This document shows, piece by piece, positions 16,266-22,551 of a DNA stretch of 22,551 bases. Every line of letters begins with the position of its first letter. Positions within the stretch are counted from its first letter, which is position 1. Both the position numbers and the translations under genes were made by a program. The notes beneath the pieces were generated by a model, which saw nothing but the letters and a program-made list of their open reading frames with translations, did not search any database and was not told where the DNA came from. Source of the stretch: a virus; the IMG/VR virus record IMGVR_UViG_3300046755_000318, positions 1 through 22,551 of that record; one strand, given 5' to 3'.

Positions 16266-16832
16266 TTACTCTACCAAATAATCTATCCATTTTGTTCCTT
16301 TAGTATCTTCATTAGGAAAAGCAAATATATACTGTTTTCCCCCAAAAGTTATCATTTTTCTAAACCCAGAAGGAATAGTAGCACCCCCAGGTACTTTTTG
16401 ATTAGAAAAATATACTTCAACTCTAACTTTTACTTCATAAAAATTAGCTAAATCCCTTTCAAATGCTTCTAATTCTTTCCAAACACCTCTATTTAATCCT
16501 TGGTGTTGTAGAGCTGAGTTTAGATATGTAAATGTTTTATATAATGTTTCTTTATCACAATTAAATGAAGCTGCAGGTGCTAAATGACCTTTATCCCAAA
16601 TATTATTTTTATAATCATTATTATCTGATGTATGAATTTCTTTGTCTTTATAAAAATCCATTCCTTGTCTAGAAGCATCTCCTTTAGGACATTGCACTGT
16701 ATATTCTACCCATATAGGTTGTTCTTTTTCTTGATCATATTGAACAATAAAAATGTCAGTTTTTATTAACTGACTATGGGTTAAAAAAGGTAATAAAAAT
16801 AATATGCTAATATATTTTTTCAAGATCATCAT
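16266..16832 (-). CDS. Exported DNA/RNA non-specific endonuclease
   Basis: A beta-beta-alpha-metal nuclease of the NucA/EndoG family. Residues 1-20 are a signal peptide (MMILKKYISILFLLPFLTHS) with Gln at +1, so the enzyme should leave the cytoplasm. The catalytic motif is DKGHLAP at 80-86 (normally DRGH), followed by the LNSALQHQGLNRGVW block at about 104-118 with the metal-ligand Asn and the downstream Trp and Glu. The 188-residue mature enzyme has the core length of the family. It starts with tandem ATGs at 16832 and overlaps the membrane gene by 26 nt. Possible roles are degrading host or competitor DNA in the periplasm or outside, or nucleotide supply. Confidence 0.9.
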   Translation of the reverse strand: MMILKKYISILFLLPFLTHSQLIKTDIFIVQYDQEKEQPIWVEYTVQCPKGDASRQGMDFYKDKEIHTSDNNDYKNNIWDKGHLAPAASFNCDKETLYKTFTYLNSALQHQGLNRGVWKELEAFERDLANFYEVKVRVEVYFSNQKVPGGATIPSGFRKMITFGGKQYIFAFPNEDTKGTKWIDYLVE

Positions 16833-17946
16833 CGTATAAATTTGATTTTATTTCTTCAATTTCTTCTTCAATTTTTCTTCTTCTCCATGAAGATAAGGGA
16901 AATGTTAATCTATATTCTAATTCTTCAATTTTTTCTATGGCTTTTTCAATTTCTGTTTTATCAACAATGCCATCTTTATTAAGATCTAAGATATTTTCCC
17001 TTTCAGTTTTTTTTTTAGAATTTTCTATTTTATCTAATTGATCAAAAAATTCTTTTTTAGTTTTAACTTCTTCAGCATCTTTAACTTCAATTACCTCAAT
17101 TTTTTCACCATATAAATTATCCTTATACTTTTTTTTAGGGTAAGCTTTATCAAATGCAAAATTAGCTGCGACTACTAATGAAATAGCTAGAGGATCAAAT
17201 ACAAATATAATTATTAATAAAAGGATATTAATAATCTTATCCATAGGAGTACCTGTAAGTCCTGATAGATACTGTAATGGTCCTAATTCCCCAGCGACTT
17301 CTGTGTTATTATCTAGTTCTAGTACTTGTAATTGAAATTTTTGTAAGCTATCAGCTGCTATTGTTCTTTTAACTTGAACACCTTTTCTATTTTCTTCTTC
17401 AGTTTTAATACGGCTTGCTGCCAACCTAAGTTCGGAAGTTGATATTGTGGTTCTAATGCCTCCAACCACCGAGGTGTCTCGTACTTGGATTTGTTGAGAC
17501 CTAGCATTGGAAAGAGTACTAATGTTATTAGAAATTCTTTCAAGTTCCTGATCATATCTTGTAACATCGTTTTGATAAAAGTCTATTTTTTGTTGAATGA
17601 ATGCTTTTTCGTTTTCTACAATAGATAATTTATTATAAGTTTCTTGGTACGCTGCACTTAAAAATCCATAAATACCCATACTAGTAATAAGTACTAATAT
17701 AATAGTTGCTACAGTTAAATAAGTTCTTAATGTTTTATTAATTGTATCCCAATACTGATATAAAAGTGAAGCTGTGACTAATTTAGCAAATTCTAATGAA
17801 CCAGCCATTATAATAACTTCTAAACTTGCTCCTGCAAAAAGTTTGCTAAGGCCACTAACTGAATAGAAAGCAGCCGAAGCTGAAACTGACAGGGCAGAAA
17901 ATCCAATTAGGAATGGAAACATTCCTTGTTTAATATTCTTAAGCAT
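16807..17946 (-). CDS. Four-TM membrane protein with coiled coil and EF-hand loop
   Basis: A 379-residue integral membrane protein. Predicted TM helices lie at about 10-36, 41-63, 76-98 and 237-265. Between TM3 and TM4 is a coiled-coil region (about 105-150) with many Gln, Asp and Ser. After TM4 is a charged soluble domain with a canonical 12-residue EF-hand loop, DLNKDGIVDKTE at 321-332 (D1, N3, D5, G6, D9, E12). The function is unknown; I have seen the N-terminal TM pattern (FPFLIGFSALSV) as recurrent in marine phages. The frame runs to 17982 only with a TTG start; the ATG at 17946 is preferred and leaves a 37-nt leader with a TATATTTATAAT stretch. It overlaps the nuclease by 26 nt. Confidence 0.85.
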   Translation of the reverse strand: MLKNIKQGMFPFLIGFSALSVSASAAFYSVSGLSKLFAGASLEVIIMAGSLEFAKLVTASLLYQYWDTINKTLRTYLTVATIILVLITSMGIYGFLSAAYQETYNKLSIVENEKAFIQQKIDFYQNDVTRYDQELERISNNISTLSNARSQQIQVRDTSVVGGIRTTISTSELRLAASRIKTEEENRKGVQVKRTIAADSLQKFQLQVLELDNNTEVAGELGPLQYLSGLTGTPMDKIINILLLIIIFVFDPLAISLVVAANFAFDKAYPKKKYKDNLYGEKIEVIEVKDAEEVKTKKEFFDQLDKIENSKKKTERENILDLNKDGIVDKTEIEKAIEKIEELEYRLTFPLSSWRRRKIEEEIEEIKSNLYDDDLEKIY

Positions 17947-17983
17947 GATTATAAATATAGTAAAAAAGAGGGGAAGGGGCAAC

Positions 17984-18400
17984 TTATTTTCTAAGGCCTT
18001 TATGCTTATCTATATTATCCAAAATTTGGTTTAATATTTCTCCCTTAATAAACCCAGCCATTGATGCATTTTTTACTGTACTTATTAATTGAAATATTAC
18101 TAGAGGCATAAGCATGGTTTCACTTAACCACCCAGCTCCCGGTATACTTTTTTCAATTACTAATATTAAAGTTAACATAATAACCCAAAAAATTAAGGTT
18201 CTTAAAATCTTAATTGCTTTATAAGTTTTAAACCCTTCTCTTTTAATTCCAGCAATTATACCAAAAAATCCATCAGTAAATACTAAAGTGGTGATTGCTA
18301 AATATTGTTCTGCATTTTGCATTGTAAGTTCCATAAAATAGGAACATATAAATCCTAACGACATACTAGTAAAGGCTATTATAAATTGAGTTGTTTTCAT
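17984..18400 (-). CDS. Holin-like membrane protein (phage holin family 4-like)
   Basis: A 138-residue protein with four hydrophobic segments: TQFIIAFTSMSLGFICSYF, YLAITTLVFTDGFFGIIAGI, ILRTLIFWVIMLTLILVIE, and the amphipathic TMLMPLVIFQLISTVKN. The order, the positive loop KREGFKTYKAIKILRT and a polar C-terminus with DNIDKHKGLRK match the holin_4_1-type family of Bacteroidota and Firmicutes phages. A holin makes the inner-membrane pores that release endolysin. An upstream ATG at 18415 would add five residues (MIWCK) and overlap the endolysin-like gene by 14 nt; I prefer MKTTQ at 18400, one nt after the upstream TAA. It is followed by the L,D-transpeptidase-like gene upstream, which supports a lysis role. 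Confidence 0.72.
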   Translation of the reverse strand: MKTTQFIIAFTSMSLGFICSYFMELTMQNAEQYLAITTLVFTDGFFGIIAGIKREGFKTYKAIKILRTLIFWVIMLTLILVIEKSIPGAGWLSETMLMPLVIFQLISTVKNASMAGFIKGEILNQILDNIDKHKGLRK

Positions 18401-18401
18401 T

Positions 18402-19010
18402 TTACACCATATCATTACTTTCTAATAATGTATAGGTAAATGAGTTACCCCAAATTTCCCTTGCAGTTTGGCATATATCTAAGAATTGATGCCAATCATC
18501 ATTATCAGCTATTACTTGACAACCAGCAGACCATTTGTCTACTCTAATTGATTTTCCTCCTGATCTTCCAGTTGCTCTATGGATATTAATTCCAAAGATA
18601 CCTTCATCAATATTTTCTTCTAGTAAATCATATTTACCATCTCTATTATTGTCTCTATAAACTTTTACGGCTGATTTTTGCCCTAAAGCTAGATATTTGC
18701 CTTGGTGTAATCTTAATTTATGGGAACCTCTATATTGTCCCGGTTTTAATATTGCTACTCCTTTTTTATTTAATAAATTTTGTTCCCAATGTGAACCTGG
18801 GTCTGTTGTTGCTTGGTAACAGTGAAATTTCCATTCACCATCTTCTTTATATGATATAGTAACACAATCATCAAATGCGTTTGTTACTCTTCCTTTAGTT
18901 TCTGAGTTTCTAACTCCAATTATGTTTACATCAAAGTCACCTCCAGTAAAGTATTTATATCCTTTACTTTCCATTGTAGTTTGAATTTGTTCTCTAGTAT
19001 AACAACTCAT
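18402..19010 (-). CDS. Candidate endolysin, L,D-transpeptidase (YkuD)-like, with EF-hand loop
   Basis: A 202-residue protein, likely a peptidoglycan-active enzyme. His144 in NIHRATG and Ser161/Cys164 in SAGCQV fit the His...SxGC pattern of YkuD-type L,D-transpeptidases, and a following helix (WHQFLDICQTAREIWGN) is typical of related phage proteins. Before it is a DNNRDGKYDLLE loop at 120-131, a canonical EF-hand form (D1, N3, D5, G6, D9, E12). There is no signal peptide, so export would need the holin next door. Transpeptidase-type proteins can also cleave cross-links; whether this one cuts or remodels the wall is not known. It lies directly upstream of the holin-like gene. Confidence 0.72.
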   Translation of the reverse strand: MSCYTREQIQTTMESKGYKYFTGGDFDVNIIGVRNSETKGRVTNAFDDCVTISYKEDGEWKFHCYQATTDPGSHWEQNLLNKKGVAILKPGQYRGSHKLRLHQGKYLALGQKSAVKVYRDNNRDGKYDLLEENIDEGIFGINIHRATGRSGGKSIRVDKWSAGCQVIADNDDWHQFLDICQTAREIWGNSFTYTLLESNDMV

Positions 19011-19318: not shown

Positions 19319-19648
19319 CTAGAAAGCGCTCATTATAAGTTCGTCAATATAATCTTGAAGTTCTTCCCTTGTTGCTGCCATTTTAAAACTAATATCTGCT
19401 TGGTATCTTTCAACTTCTTCTCCATCCTGAAATATTAATATAGTTGGAACAACAACAACTTTAAATTTACCTGCGTCTTCAGGTTTTGATCCTATATCAT
19501 ATTTTTTAATATCACAATCTGTGAGTTTATCTACCCATTCTATTTCATTTGCTGCATTCCAAGCAGCATTAAAATATTTAACTTCTACCTGACTAAACAT
19601 AGTTATAGAGGAGAATAATAAAATAGGTAATATTAAAAACTTTTTCAT
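19319..19648 (-). CDS. Exported thioredoxin-fold protein lacking the CxxC
   Basis: A 109-residue protein with a signal peptide (MKKFLILPILLFSSITMFS, Gln at +1) followed by a short thioredoxin fold. The expected WCxxC position reads FNAAWNAANEIEW, with Trp kept and both Cys missing; a single Cys occurs later (LTDCDIKKYDI). The cis-Pro region VVPTILIFQDGEEVERY and a C-terminal helix are kept. It therefore should bind or scaffold rather than carry out redox. It lies in the surface cluster between the coiled-coil protein and the lysis genes. I recall similar Cys-less proteins in other marine phages but cannot name a family. The 48-nt gap downstream holds a direct repeat. Confidence 0.8.
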   Translation of the reverse strand: MKKFLILPILLFSSITMFSQVEVKYFNAAWNAANEIEWVDKLTDCDIKKYDIGSKPEDAGKFKVVVVPTILIFQDGEEVERYQADISFKMAATREELQDYIDELIMSAF

Positions 19649-19655
19649 AATAAGT

Positions 19656-19940
19656 TTATCTTAGTTTATCAATCTTTTCCTCAATACGTTTCATGTCTTC
19701 TTTTAACTCTTGAACATCTTCTTGAGTAGTCATGATTGTTTGACGGATTAATTGATCTTTCATATCGTATTCCATTCTAGTAACATCTGGTGGTGGTGCA
19801 ACTGGTAATTCTTTTGCTTCTTCTATATCTGCTTGAAGAGCAAACCACATACCAACTACTGTGGCAATACCAAACGCTATACCTATAAGGGTTTGAATAC
19901 TAACTGTAAAACTCGTGCTTTCGCTTAATTCTTTTGCCAT
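19656..19940 (-). CDS. Single-TM protein with proline linker and coiled coil
   Basis: A 94-residue protein with a short polar N-terminus (MAKELSESTSFTVS), one TM helix at about 17-35 (LIGIAFGIATVVGMWFALQ), a Pro-rich spacer (ELPVAPPPDV) and a C-terminal coiled coil (TQEDVQELKEDMKRIEEKID). This is the topology of an inner-membrane spanin-like or tether protein with an envelope-facing helix, but there is no lipobox partner visible in the window. It lies 3 nt after the beta-barrel stop and 7 nt before the exported thioredoxin-like start, so the four surface genes are one transcript. Confidence 0.7.
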   Translation of the reverse strand: MAKELSESTSFTVSIQTLIGIAFGIATVVGMWFALQADIEEAKELPVAPPPDVTRMEYDMKDQLIRQTIMTTQEDVQELKEDMKRIEEKIDKLR

Positions 19941-19943
19941 TTT

Positions 19944-21011
19944 TTAAAAAATTATATAATTAACTCCCATTGAAAAATTATGCCAATTTCTATTCCAATA
20001 TTTATTATATGTTCCTTCTGCAAATAACCCTAATGATTTGGTTAATTTGTAGCCAAATATTAAACCCCCAGAATAATCTGTCCATTGGCCTCCATTATAA
20101 TTATGAAAAGAAAATTCATCACCACCTTTTATATGTATAGGCATTACATTACCCCAAGCATGTAGCCAGAAGTTTTTAGTATACTTATAATAATCAAAAC
20201 CAAATATGGCAGAATATTCTAATCTTAATGGAGCTTCATTTTCTTTTTTTTCTACATAATTAACTAATACTTGTGGAATAATTACTTCTTCCCATACTTC
20301 AGTACTTGTTGCTACTACTGCTCCTTGAGGGTTAAGGTATTCTATATCTCCTCCTCCGTTAAAGTTTACATTATAACCTTCCTGTAGAGCTAAATAGGTG
20401 TAATGTAAATTACCATTACTTAACATCCACTCTTGTAAAGGATCGTATCCATAAGGTTTAGAGAGTCTTTGTGCAACCCCTAAATTAATAGAAAGTTCTT
20501 TAGTTATATTATGTTTATATCTTTGAGAAGCTTGAAAGTACTCTATATCAATAAAACCTCCTACTAGATATTCTACTTTAGCTACCCAATTATCAGCTAC
20601 ATATCTTAAAAAGTGATGCTGGTCTAAATATGTTTCGCCTTGTATTCTTCTATAATCAGCTTCAAATAAAAATTCAAATCCTTTTATTTTACCTAATGTG
20701 GCATTATCTGAATATGATTCTTCTGTACCATTATAAAATACATTAGCTCTATTTTCATATTGAAATCTAGCTATTTTTCTTATACCCAAAGATAAAGAGT
20801 AGTCAAATGGGGTTTCAATTACATCTTGAATTAAAGTTCCAGTATTAACTGAGAATTGGTTTTTGTCTGCAAGAGATGTGCCCCCATTTACTGCGGCGAA
20901 TATGGTTGAAAATTTAAAAGTTTTTTTTAATTCTTTTTTAAATTTGGATTCAGATTCTTGACTAAAACCTAAAAATGGGAGTACTAAAAGTAGTATTAAT
21001 AGTTTTTTCAT
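19944..21011 (-). CDS. Outer-membrane beta-barrel protein with signal peptide
   Basis: A 355-residue protein starting MKKLLILLLVLPFLGFSQ, a clear signal peptide of the Bacteroidota type with Gln at +1. The rest is rich in alternating aromatic and polar strands (SLSLGIRKIARFQYENRAN, FLFEADYRRIQGE, LRLEYSAIFGFDYYKY, GGLIFGYKLTKSLGLF) and ends in Phe after SMGVNYII, the C-terminal signature recognised by the BAM complex. Length and strand spacing suggest 12-16 strands. It should insert in the host outer membrane during infection. Possible roles are exclusion of other phages, blocking of the receptor, a porin or an anchor for the surface protein downstream. The family is unknown. Confidence 0.83.
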   Translation of the reverse strand: MKKLLILLLVLPFLGFSQESESKFKKELKKTFKFSTIFAAVNGGTSLADKNQFSVNTGTLIQDVIETPFDYSLSLGIRKIARFQYENRANVFYNGTEESYSDNATLGKIKGFEFLFEADYRRIQGETYLDQHHFLRYVADNWVAKVEYLVGGFIDIEYFQASQRYKHNITKELSINLGVAQRLSKPYGYDPLQEWMLSNGNLHYTYLALQEGYNVNFNGGGDIEYLNPQGAVVATSTEVWEEVIIPQVLVNYVEKKENEAPLRLEYSAIFGFDYYKYTKNFWLHAWGNVMPIHIKGGDEFSFHNYNGGQWTDYSGGLIFGYKLTKSLGLFAEGTYNKYWNRNWHNFSMGVNYIIF

Positions 21012-21012
21012 T

Positions 21013-22551
21013 TTATTCTTTAATTATTCTTTTATTAAATATTTGAGTTCCATTCTTTATTGTAAGGAAATATACTCCAGCACTAGCTTTCGATAAATCT
21101 ATTACATTTCCAGATGATGGAGGTATAATTAATTTACCTAGTAGGTCTCTTACTTCAAATGTTACCCCTTCTACATTACTTGATATGTTAATAATTCCAT
21201 TTGTTGGGTTTGGATAAATTACAATTGAATTAAAATCTAATGATCTAGAGAACATACCGTCTATATCCATTCCTTCTGGCCATCCGTTTTCACAGTAATT
21301 GTAAGTTTCCTGACAAATTGGATCCCATTCATTTTCACAGCAATAATTATCTACGTCAATTACCCAAGCATAACATTGGTTATTTAACCAATATGGTTCA
21401 CCTGGTCCTGTTATACAACCTGCATCATATAAACAAGCATCAGGATCTGCTACGTTAGCTTCTGGGTTATAGTTATAAGATTCTGGATCCATACATCCTA
21501 CTACTGCTGTAATACATGTACCATTATCTACATTAGCTTCAGGATCAAAATTAATTGAGTTAGGGTCCATACAGCCGTATACTTTTTCTATACAACTAAA
21601 GTCTTCTGTATTTGCATCTGGATTATAATTTAATGCATCTGGATCTGTACAACCTGTTACAATTGGGATACAGCTACCGTCGTCAACAGTTGCTAGTGCA
21701 TTGTAGTTAAATGAGTTAGGATCCATACAGCCATATAAAAGAGGGATACAGCTGCCATCATCGGTATTAGCATCTGGATTGTAATTTAATGAAGTATTGT
21801 CTGTACATCCTTCTACTACAGGAATACAAGAACCATCGTCTACGGTTGCAAGTGGATTATAGTTAAATGAAGTTTCATCCATACATCCATAAAGAATTGG
21901 AATACAAGAACCATCGTCTGTATTAGCTTCTGGGTTGTAGTTTAAAGAGGTGTTATCTGTACAACCATAAATTACATCTATACAACTTCCATCATCAGTA
22001 TTTGCTAATTCATTATAGTTAAATGAGTCTGGGTTTGTACAGCCTGCTAATATAGGAATACAGGAACCATCATTTGTATTAGCTTCTGGATTATAGTTGA
22101 ATGATGTATTATCTGTACATCCTAGAATTACGGGAACACAAGTTCCATTATCTGTGTTGGCATCTGGATTGTAGTTAAATGAATCAGGATCAGTACAACC
22201 GAATACTACTGGTTCACAAGTTCCATTGTCTGTATTAGCATCTGGATTATAGTTAAATGAATCTGGGTCCATACAACCAAATACAACAGGCACACAACTT
22301 CCATCATCTACATTAGCATTAGGATCATAATTAAATGAATCTGGGTCCATACATCCTTCTACTATTGGAATACAACTTCCATCGTCTGTATTTGCATTTG
22401 GGTTATAATTGATTGAATTTTCATCCATACATCCCTCTACAACTGCAATACATGAACCATCATCTACATTAGCATTCTCATTGTAATTAAATGAAGTTTC
22501 ATCCATACAGCCTTCTATAACTGCAATACAATCTCCAGCTGTATTAGCTTC
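21013..22551 (-). CDS. Cys-rich repeat protein with T9SS sorting tail (5' end outside window)
   Basis: A large secreted protein open at its N-terminus. The frame stays open past the internal Met at 22506 to the window end (15 more codons of the same repeat), so the true start lies outside. It holds 14 full 26-residue repeats of the form GCxDxxSxNYNPxANxDDGSC, with two Cys per repeat and acidic, likely Ca-binding, loops. A Cys-rich link follows (CCENEWDPICQETYNYC), then a type A T9SS sorting domain of about 73 residues (IVIYPNPTNGIINIS; VRDLLGKLI; SAGVYFLTIKNG; ending KRIIKE). By known T9SS biology the tail directs export across the outer membrane and is then cleaved. It is 1 nt upstream of the beta-barrel gene. 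Confidence 0.92.
   Translation of the reverse strand, partial: EANTAGDCIAVIEGCMDETSFNYNENANVDDGSCIAVVEGCMDENSINYNPNANTDDGSCIPIVEGCMDPDSFNYDPNANVDDGSCVPVVFGCMDPDSFNYNPDANTDNGTCEPVVFGCTDPDSFNYNPDANTDNGTCVPVILGCTDNTSFNYNPEANTNDGSCIPILAGCTNPDSFNYNELANTDDGSCIDVIYGCTDNTSLNYNPEANTDDGSCIPILYGCMDETSFNYNPLATVDDGSCIPVVEGCTDNTSLNYNPDANTDDGSCIPLLYGCMDPNSFNYNALATVDDGSCIPIVTGCTDPDALNYNPDANTEDFSCIEKVYGCMDPNSINFDPEANVDNGTCITAVVGCMDPESYNYNPEANVADPDACLYDAGCITGPGEPYWLNNQCYAWVIDVDNYCCENEWDPICQETYNYCENGWPEGMDIDGMFSRSLDFNSIVIYPNPTNGIINISSNVEGVTFEVRDLLGKLIIPPSSGNVIDLSKASAGVYFLTIKNGTQIFNKRIIKE
21421..22512 (-). repeat. 78-bp coding tandem repeat array, 14 units
   Basis: Tandem 78-nt units (26 codons each) within the T9SS-tailed gene. 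They begin with GGCTGT or the like and are diverged, with different codons for the same residues and shared substitutions between adjacent units (for example units 4-5 both with DNGTC and units 3-4 both with VVF ends), which suggests repeated unequal crossover or duplication. The array continues past the window edge. Unit number may vary between related phages. Confidence 0.92.

Follow-up and report, generated by a model that had tools for sequence, protein, structure and literature searches.

A predicted L,D-transpeptidase-fold lysis enzyme with a conserved calcium-type loop in a virus record with T4-like replication genes

Introduction

Phage lysins that are switched by calcium have already been described. 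In EndoT5, the L-alanoyl-D-glutamate peptidase of phage T5 (M15_C), calcium fixes a mobile loop and opens the active site, and the calcium of the wall suffices for activation (PMC10487532). The CHAP domain of LysGH15 contains a 12-residue "EF-hand-like" calcium loop, which works as an on/off switch (PMC4022735). An earlier note on the DNA analyzed here regarded calcium-gated lysis as unprecedented, a view that these two enzymes contradict. This DNA, hereafter the window, spans 22,551 bases (IMG/VR virus record IMGVR_UViG_3300046755_000318). It comes from a marine phage and carries T4-like replication genes as well as GroEL and GroES genes, as read from the translations. The note had proposed that the neighboring EF-hand loops of two proteins jointly time lysis, one in a candidate endolysin of 202 amino acids (18402-19010, minus strand (-); the wall enzyme) and the other in a protein with four transmembrane (TM) segments (16807-17982(-); the four-TM protein). 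The present analysis mainly concerns the wall enzyme and its loop.

The wall enzyme resembles EndoT5 as a candidate phage endolysin with a calcium-type loop that would lie beside the active site, but EndoT5 is a zinc peptidase of another fold, whereas the wall enzyme is a predicted Cys/His enzyme with the L,D-transpeptidase fold, for which the calcium effect is a prediction. With the CHAP domains of LysGH15 and LysK it shares a loop without the two flanking helices, which in the wall enzyme would likewise lie near a Cys-His active site, while LysGH15 differs in its CHAP fold, its Gram-positive host, and its ligands at positions 1, 3, 5, 7, and 12. The cellular envelope enzymes Pgp2, Csd6, Bd1075, DpaA, and LdtMt2 share the predicted fold with the wall enzyme, and the distance between the catalytic His and the Cys of (S/T)xGC is similar, but the wall enzyme stays below the YkuD cut-off, and the comparison is made at the level of fold and motif. 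Tlde1a, an effector of the type VI secretion system (T6SS) with an altered L,D-transpeptidase fold, kills bacteria from the periplasm (PMC9638812). It was compared with the wall enzyme by motif, and it differs in its T6SS delivery, a disulfide bond, and a capping subdomain. YkuD-type phage lytic proteins form a recognized small class with 10 PhaLP entries (PMC8310338), which share an L,D-transpeptidase-type domain but, unlike PHROG_3000, the family of the wall enzyme, are detected by YkuD models. Finally, calcium binding by Dx[DN]xDG loops is known from many settings in which flanking helices are missing, including strand-loop settings (PMC3123361). The loop of the wall enzyme has the same 1-3-5 ligand spacing and a strand-loop setting, but Gly6 is not conserved in its family. 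What is new is the combination: a probable lysis family of the L,D-transpeptidase fold, large and divergent, into which a calcium-type loop is built.

Results and discussion

Predicted fold and catalytic residues of the wall enzyme

The wall enzyme matched PHROG_3000, annotated as "unknown function" (7.6e-35), and PHROG_33083, annotated as "endolysin" (8.4e-19). Its AlphaFold2 (AF2) model, which was built from 60 relatives, had a mean predicted local distance difference test (pLDDT) score of 90.9. The 17 best PDB entries found with VIA-align all belonged to the L,D-transpeptidase/carboxypeptidase group (Z 9.1-6.9, one of them being titled merely as an amidase/peptidase/peptidoglycan-binding protein), and the next entry had a Z of 2.6. 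Among these matches were Pgp2 (Z 9.1), Csd6 (8.9), Bd1075 (8.5), DpaA (7.9), LdtMt1, LdtMt2, and LdtMt5. Plain Foldseek with the same model gave weak results, with Pgp2 again as the best match (E 0.058), and a PDB sequence search with the wall enzyme and its profile returned nothing meaningful.

The motif HX-X14-17-(S/T)xGC was found in the wall enzyme as H144, 16 residues, and S161-A-G-C164, with Ala at the place where the (S/T)HGC motif has His. Both parts are kept in the stand-alone relatives, in which His144 (INIHRAT; codon at 18579-18581(-)) is invariant and the SAGC segment at residues 161-164 (18519-18530(-)) recurs as SxGC. In a weak-scoring hhalign comparison, these residues were paired with the His of the YkuD IHG and with the YkuD (S/T)xGC motif. 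The predicted catalytic pair is accordingly written here as His144 and Cys164, with Cys164 as the putative nucleophile.

Conservation and placement of the calcium-type loop

The loop DNNRDGKYDLLE spans residues 120-131 of the wall enzyme (18618-18653(-)), and the loop DLNKDGIVDKTE lies in the tail of the four-TM protein at residues 321-332 counted from the ATG or 333-344 counted from the TTG (16951-16986(-)). As the earlier note had stated, both match the EF-hand loop at positions 1, 3, 5, 6, 9, and 12. The pattern D.[DN].DG..D..E had exactly these two matches in the proteins of the window, against an expectation of 0.0015 per window from 2000 shuffles of the same proteins, and a chance origin was therefore rejected. 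The description of both loops as canonical EF-hands held for the four-TM protein, whose tail loop DLNKDGIVDKTEI fully matches PROSITE PS00018, and did not hold for the wall enzyme, which departs from PS00018 with Tyr at position 8 and Glu at position 13. A helix-loop-helix setting was also absent from the wall-enzyme loop in the AF2 model as assigned by DSSP, where strand 115-120 is followed by the loop, a three-residue helix (131-133), and strand 134-137. The two motifs are different things, one being a loop of an enzyme family and the other a lineage-specific feature of the four-TM tail.

Among 98 close homologues of the wall enzyme, position 1 was always Asp, position 3 Asn or Asp, position 5 Asp or Asn, and position 9 Asp, with Gly6 in 62/98 and Glu12 in 79/98. 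The same four positions stood out in the aligned loops of about 237 stand-alone relatives, drawn from marine, gut, and jumbo phages and from bacterial genomes, with Asp at position 1 in 236/237, Asn or Asp at position 3 in 227/237, Asp or Asn at position 5 in 236/237, and Asp at position 9 in 213/237. Crass-like (crAss-like), DAC-type, and P2-like phages and bacterial genomes largely kept positions 1, 3, 5, and 9, while positions 6 and 12 drifted. Gut crAss-like phages and relatives from non-marine bacterial genomes have retained the loop, and the role that the note had given to sea water was therefore dropped. The loss of ligand residues in close homologues, which the note had named as a possible objection, was observed for the four-TM protein. 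In the enzyme, positions 1, 3, 5, and 9 did not show it, and position 12 was lost in some relatives.

In a diverse set of 90 sequences, conservation peaked at residues 120, 124, and 128, with 122 as Asn/Asp, and dipped at 121, 125, and 126. This alternation of conserved and variable positions is suggestive of a calcium loop. Arg119, directly N-terminal to the loop, was invariant. The loop lies between strands in the AF2 model, at -24 to -13 from His144, and the lid of LdtMt2, Tyr298-Trp324, lies at -38 to -12 from the catalytic His336 (PMC5406659). Judged by this sequence offset, the loop would occupy the position of the L,D-transpeptidase lid. We regard it as a candidate site that, on balance, probably binds calcium, while a requirement of calcium for full enzyme activity is possible but rather doubtful.

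Evidence for a role in lysis

The gene 17984-18415(-) is the sole gene between the two motif-bearing genes, as had been noted before. It encodes three predicted TM segments according to the hydropathy scan and scored 22.3 bits with Pfam Phage_holin_4_1 (PF05105), at the cut-off of 22.2. The order enzyme, holin, and four-TM protein was found in 79 fetched loci. The same scan revealed no TM segment, signal peptide, or hydrophobic N-terminus in the wall enzyme, and most relatives from bacterial genomes also lack a hydrophobic N-terminus, as judged by eye and as far as their N-termini can be seen. The locus therefore has the layout of a holin-dependent endolysin, with a predicted cytosolic wall enzyme, an adjoining holin, and a conserved gene order.

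Domain fusions and gene neighborhoods of the relatives were consistent with this layout. A relative in Desulfonema magnum has the enzyme domain fused behind a phage lysozyme (GH24, PF00959, 3.2e-45), another has it fused to PG_binding_1 (6.3e-11), and six have it behind T4 gp5-like hub domains ("baseplate hub subunit and tail lysozyme"), in the usual place of the lysozyme. Downstream of the enzyme gene, five crAss-like phages carry a pair of overlapping genes for small membrane proteins. The product of the first has a TM segment at its N-terminus, and together the two are possibly an unannotated spanin pair of the Rz/Rz1 type. The P2-like phage ACA1 has the enzyme gene between its tail-tube and tail-chaperone genes. 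Overall, the protein is very probably the enzyme that cuts the wall in a holin-dependent lysis cassette, its activity being predicted.

As a separate observation, Immutovirus carries a putative chitinase-type lysin beside the homologous holin, in place of the wall enzyme. Judging from this neighbor, one endolysin seems to have replaced another among related flavophages.

The four-TM protein and its tail loop

The four-TM protein has 379 amino acids from the ATG at 17946 and 391 from the TTG at 17982. The TM scan and its AF2 model indicated four hydrophobic segments, of which TM3 and TM4 are separated by a long coiled-coil hairpin. The hairpin, residues 92-231 (17254-17673(-)), is predicted to be periplasmic from the AF2 secondary structure and the positive-inside tally, and by the same rule the tail would be cytosolic. 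No family for this protein was found in Pfam, PHROGs, or NCBIfam. Its fold matches were dismissed as coiled-coil noise, and a match to the spanin family PHROG_1152 (E 0.015) was too weak to be accepted. Homologues occur in Immutovirus, a pelagiphage, and jumbo phages. In the pelagiphage Mosig the gene directly follows a putative glucosaminidase gene, and in Immutovirus it lies about 1.8 kb past the holin, whereas in XacN1 and RAS14 it is not beside annotated lysis genes. The four-TM protein may thus be associated with lysis.

The tail EF loop was present in 56/87 and missing in 31/87 close homologues with the full four-TM tail, and it was absent from the four-TM homologues of Immutovirus, Mosig, Mel-JY01, XacN1, and RAS14. 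Among the 56 carriers, N3 was found in 54/56, D5 in 56/56, and D9 in 45/56, with flanks of 30 amino acids that were 21-29% identical; this conservation is partly circular, since the carriers were chosen by the loop pattern. The tail alone stayed below the Pfam EF-hand cut-off (EF-hand_5, 16.3 bits vs. 25.9, E 0.0065). Helices 297-315 and 330-346 were predicted around the loop in the AF2 model, with low pLDDT before it. Two further motifs were observed in the tails, namely a C-terminal TK[TI]Y-type peptide, which most four-TM homologues retain even with a different tail in place of the EF-hand one, and GQNGN(D)GEHY, which is found in most four-TM tails.

The presence of the tail EF loop was not associated with an acidic position 12 of the enzyme loop (36/9 vs. 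26/2, Fisher p 0.19), nor with Gly6 of the enzyme (Fisher p 0.12). Because the tail loop and the enzyme positions do not co-vary, a joint calcium timer of the two proteins is unsupported. What stands of the proposed calcium-timed lysis is a conserved calcium-type loop in a cytosolic-looking enzyme beside a holin, with a release switch as a plausible outcome; the timer made of two motifs does not stand.

Proposed mechanism and competing explanations

A calcium-assisted lysis enzyme is plausible from the sequence features described above. Free calcium is low in the cytosol. The wall enzyme, which carries no signal peptide, would remain cytosolic up to the opening of the membrane by the holin, as suggested by its sequence and position. 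On meeting the calcium-rich periplasm, the loop Asp120-x-Asn122-x-Asp124-x-x-x-Asp128 would take up calcium, and the bound ion would help to order the active-site lid, so that activity would be best after release, similar to the calcium loop of T5 EndoT5. The EF-hand of the four-TM protein would be a separate, lineage-specific tail feature outside this enzyme switch. This is the account that we favor, although taken as a whole it is tentative, with the balance leaning slightly against it.

The hub-fused copies bear on this release switch. In each of the jumbo phages LR756502.1 and LR745206.1, the loop is present in a stand-alone copy (RDNDKDSISEE and RDNDKDNNYDLNE) and missing from a hub-fused copy. 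Four more hub fusions from IMG/VR also have no loop, which is thus missing in 6/6 hub-fused copies. Since hub-fused enzymes act from the virion and have no comparable wait in the cytosol, this loss is what a release switch predicts.

Several observations weigh against the release-switch account and the assignments on which it builds. The catalytic Cys is also lost in 3/6 hub-fused copies, and the six fusions look like a single clade, so that the loss of the loop may reflect relaxed constraint. In the stand-alone relatives, Gly at position 6 was found in 97/237 and Glu at position 12 in 124/237, and in ten relatives position 3 is occupied by Lys, Thr, or Ile. The nearest solved structures include L,D-carboxypeptidases, whose activity would hardly be lytic alone. 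With regard to the fold, the cut-off of YkuD PF03734 was not reached, as one of 60 family members gave a match (E 0.055) and the window protein none; a scan of the window with the YkuD model likewise gave no match, and hhalign paired the catalytic His and Cys with their counterparts in YkuD proteins of bacterial genomes at low probability. The wall enzyme is therefore not filed as a PF03734 member, and it is described as an enzyme of the L,D-transpeptidase fold as modeled.

Two other explanations of the enzyme loop were considered. Calcium might be bound purely for structure, as a clamp on which folding or stability constantly depends, with no part in timing, and the retention of the loop in bacterial-genome relatives, gut phages, and marine phages alike would agree with this, as would the structural nature of many Dx[DN]xDG sites (PMC3123361). 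However, hub-fused copies do without the loop. Low cytosolic calcium would, moreover, leave such a site empty before release, and we consider a clamp unlikely. The loop might instead bind no calcium at all. In that case it would be a turn rich in Asp and Asn that gives the active-site flap its shape or touches the substrate, and its likeness to an EF-hand would be convergent. Conservation is lacking at positions 6 and 12, position 8 is Tyr/Leu, and the invariant Arg119 before the loop could mean a role in substrate binding, but the ligand positions 1, 3, 5, and 9 are almost only Asp/Asn while the intervening positions vary, which leaves a non-binding turn with a similarly low chance.

The joint timer proposed earlier is a very improbable explanation. 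Both motifs exist and the genes are neighbors in many loci, but in addition to the missing co-variation, the four-TM motif is gone from a considerable part of the close homologues and from the distant ones examined, and Immutovirus, which lacks the motif, still has the four-TM gene in the vicinity of a holin and an enzyme of the chitinase type. The tail EF-hand could also be a genuine cytosolic calcium or magnesium site of an inner-membrane protein associated with lysis, for example, a stabilizer of the tail or a sensor of membrane leakage. Its full PS00018 match, the partly circular conservation of its ligands despite divergent flanks, and the gene neighborhoods in Mosig and Immutovirus speak for such a site. 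Nevertheless, it is dispensable in a third of the relatives, a single EF-hand stays below the Pfam cut-off, and the gene lies away from annotated lysis genes in XacN1 and RAS14, so that a metal site there is unlikely.

The release-switch account can be extended to the whole family. PHROG_3000 would then be a lysis family of the L,D-transpeptidase fold that is widespread in marine T4-like, crAss-like, jumbo, and P2-like phages. Its lid would be ordered by calcium only after holin release, and the gp5-hub fusions, never waiting in the low-calcium cytosol, would have discarded the switch. In this full form the proposal is unlikely to hold. The analysis nevertheless offers a probable function for a large family of unknown function, members of which occur in gut crAss-like phages, and it extends the set of possibly calcium-using lysins by one fold. 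The pairs of stand-alone and hub-fused copies within single jumbo-phage genomes represent a natural test of the loop as a cytosolic silencer of lysis enzymes.

Neighboring genes

The gene 19656-19940(-) encodes a protein of 94 amino acids in which a single TM segment at the N-terminus is accompanied by a proline stretch and a coiled coil; it is a possible inner-membrane spanin. Signal-peptide-like N-termini were found in a DNA/RNA non-specific endonuclease (16266-16832(-); PF01223, 5e-25), a thioredoxin-like protein (19319-19648(-)), and a protein of 355 amino acids (19944-21011(-)). On account of these N-termini, the phage seems to export several proteins from the cytosol. The gene 21013-22551(-) encodes a protein of at least 512 amino acids, which consists of about a dozen GC[MT]DPDSFNYNPDANVDDGSC repeats and ends in a C-terminal sorting domain of the type IX secretion system (T9SS type A; TIGR04183, 1.2e-13), an unusual domain in a phage. 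A similar repeat protein was found in only one phage record, that of the marine virus AG-345-P14.

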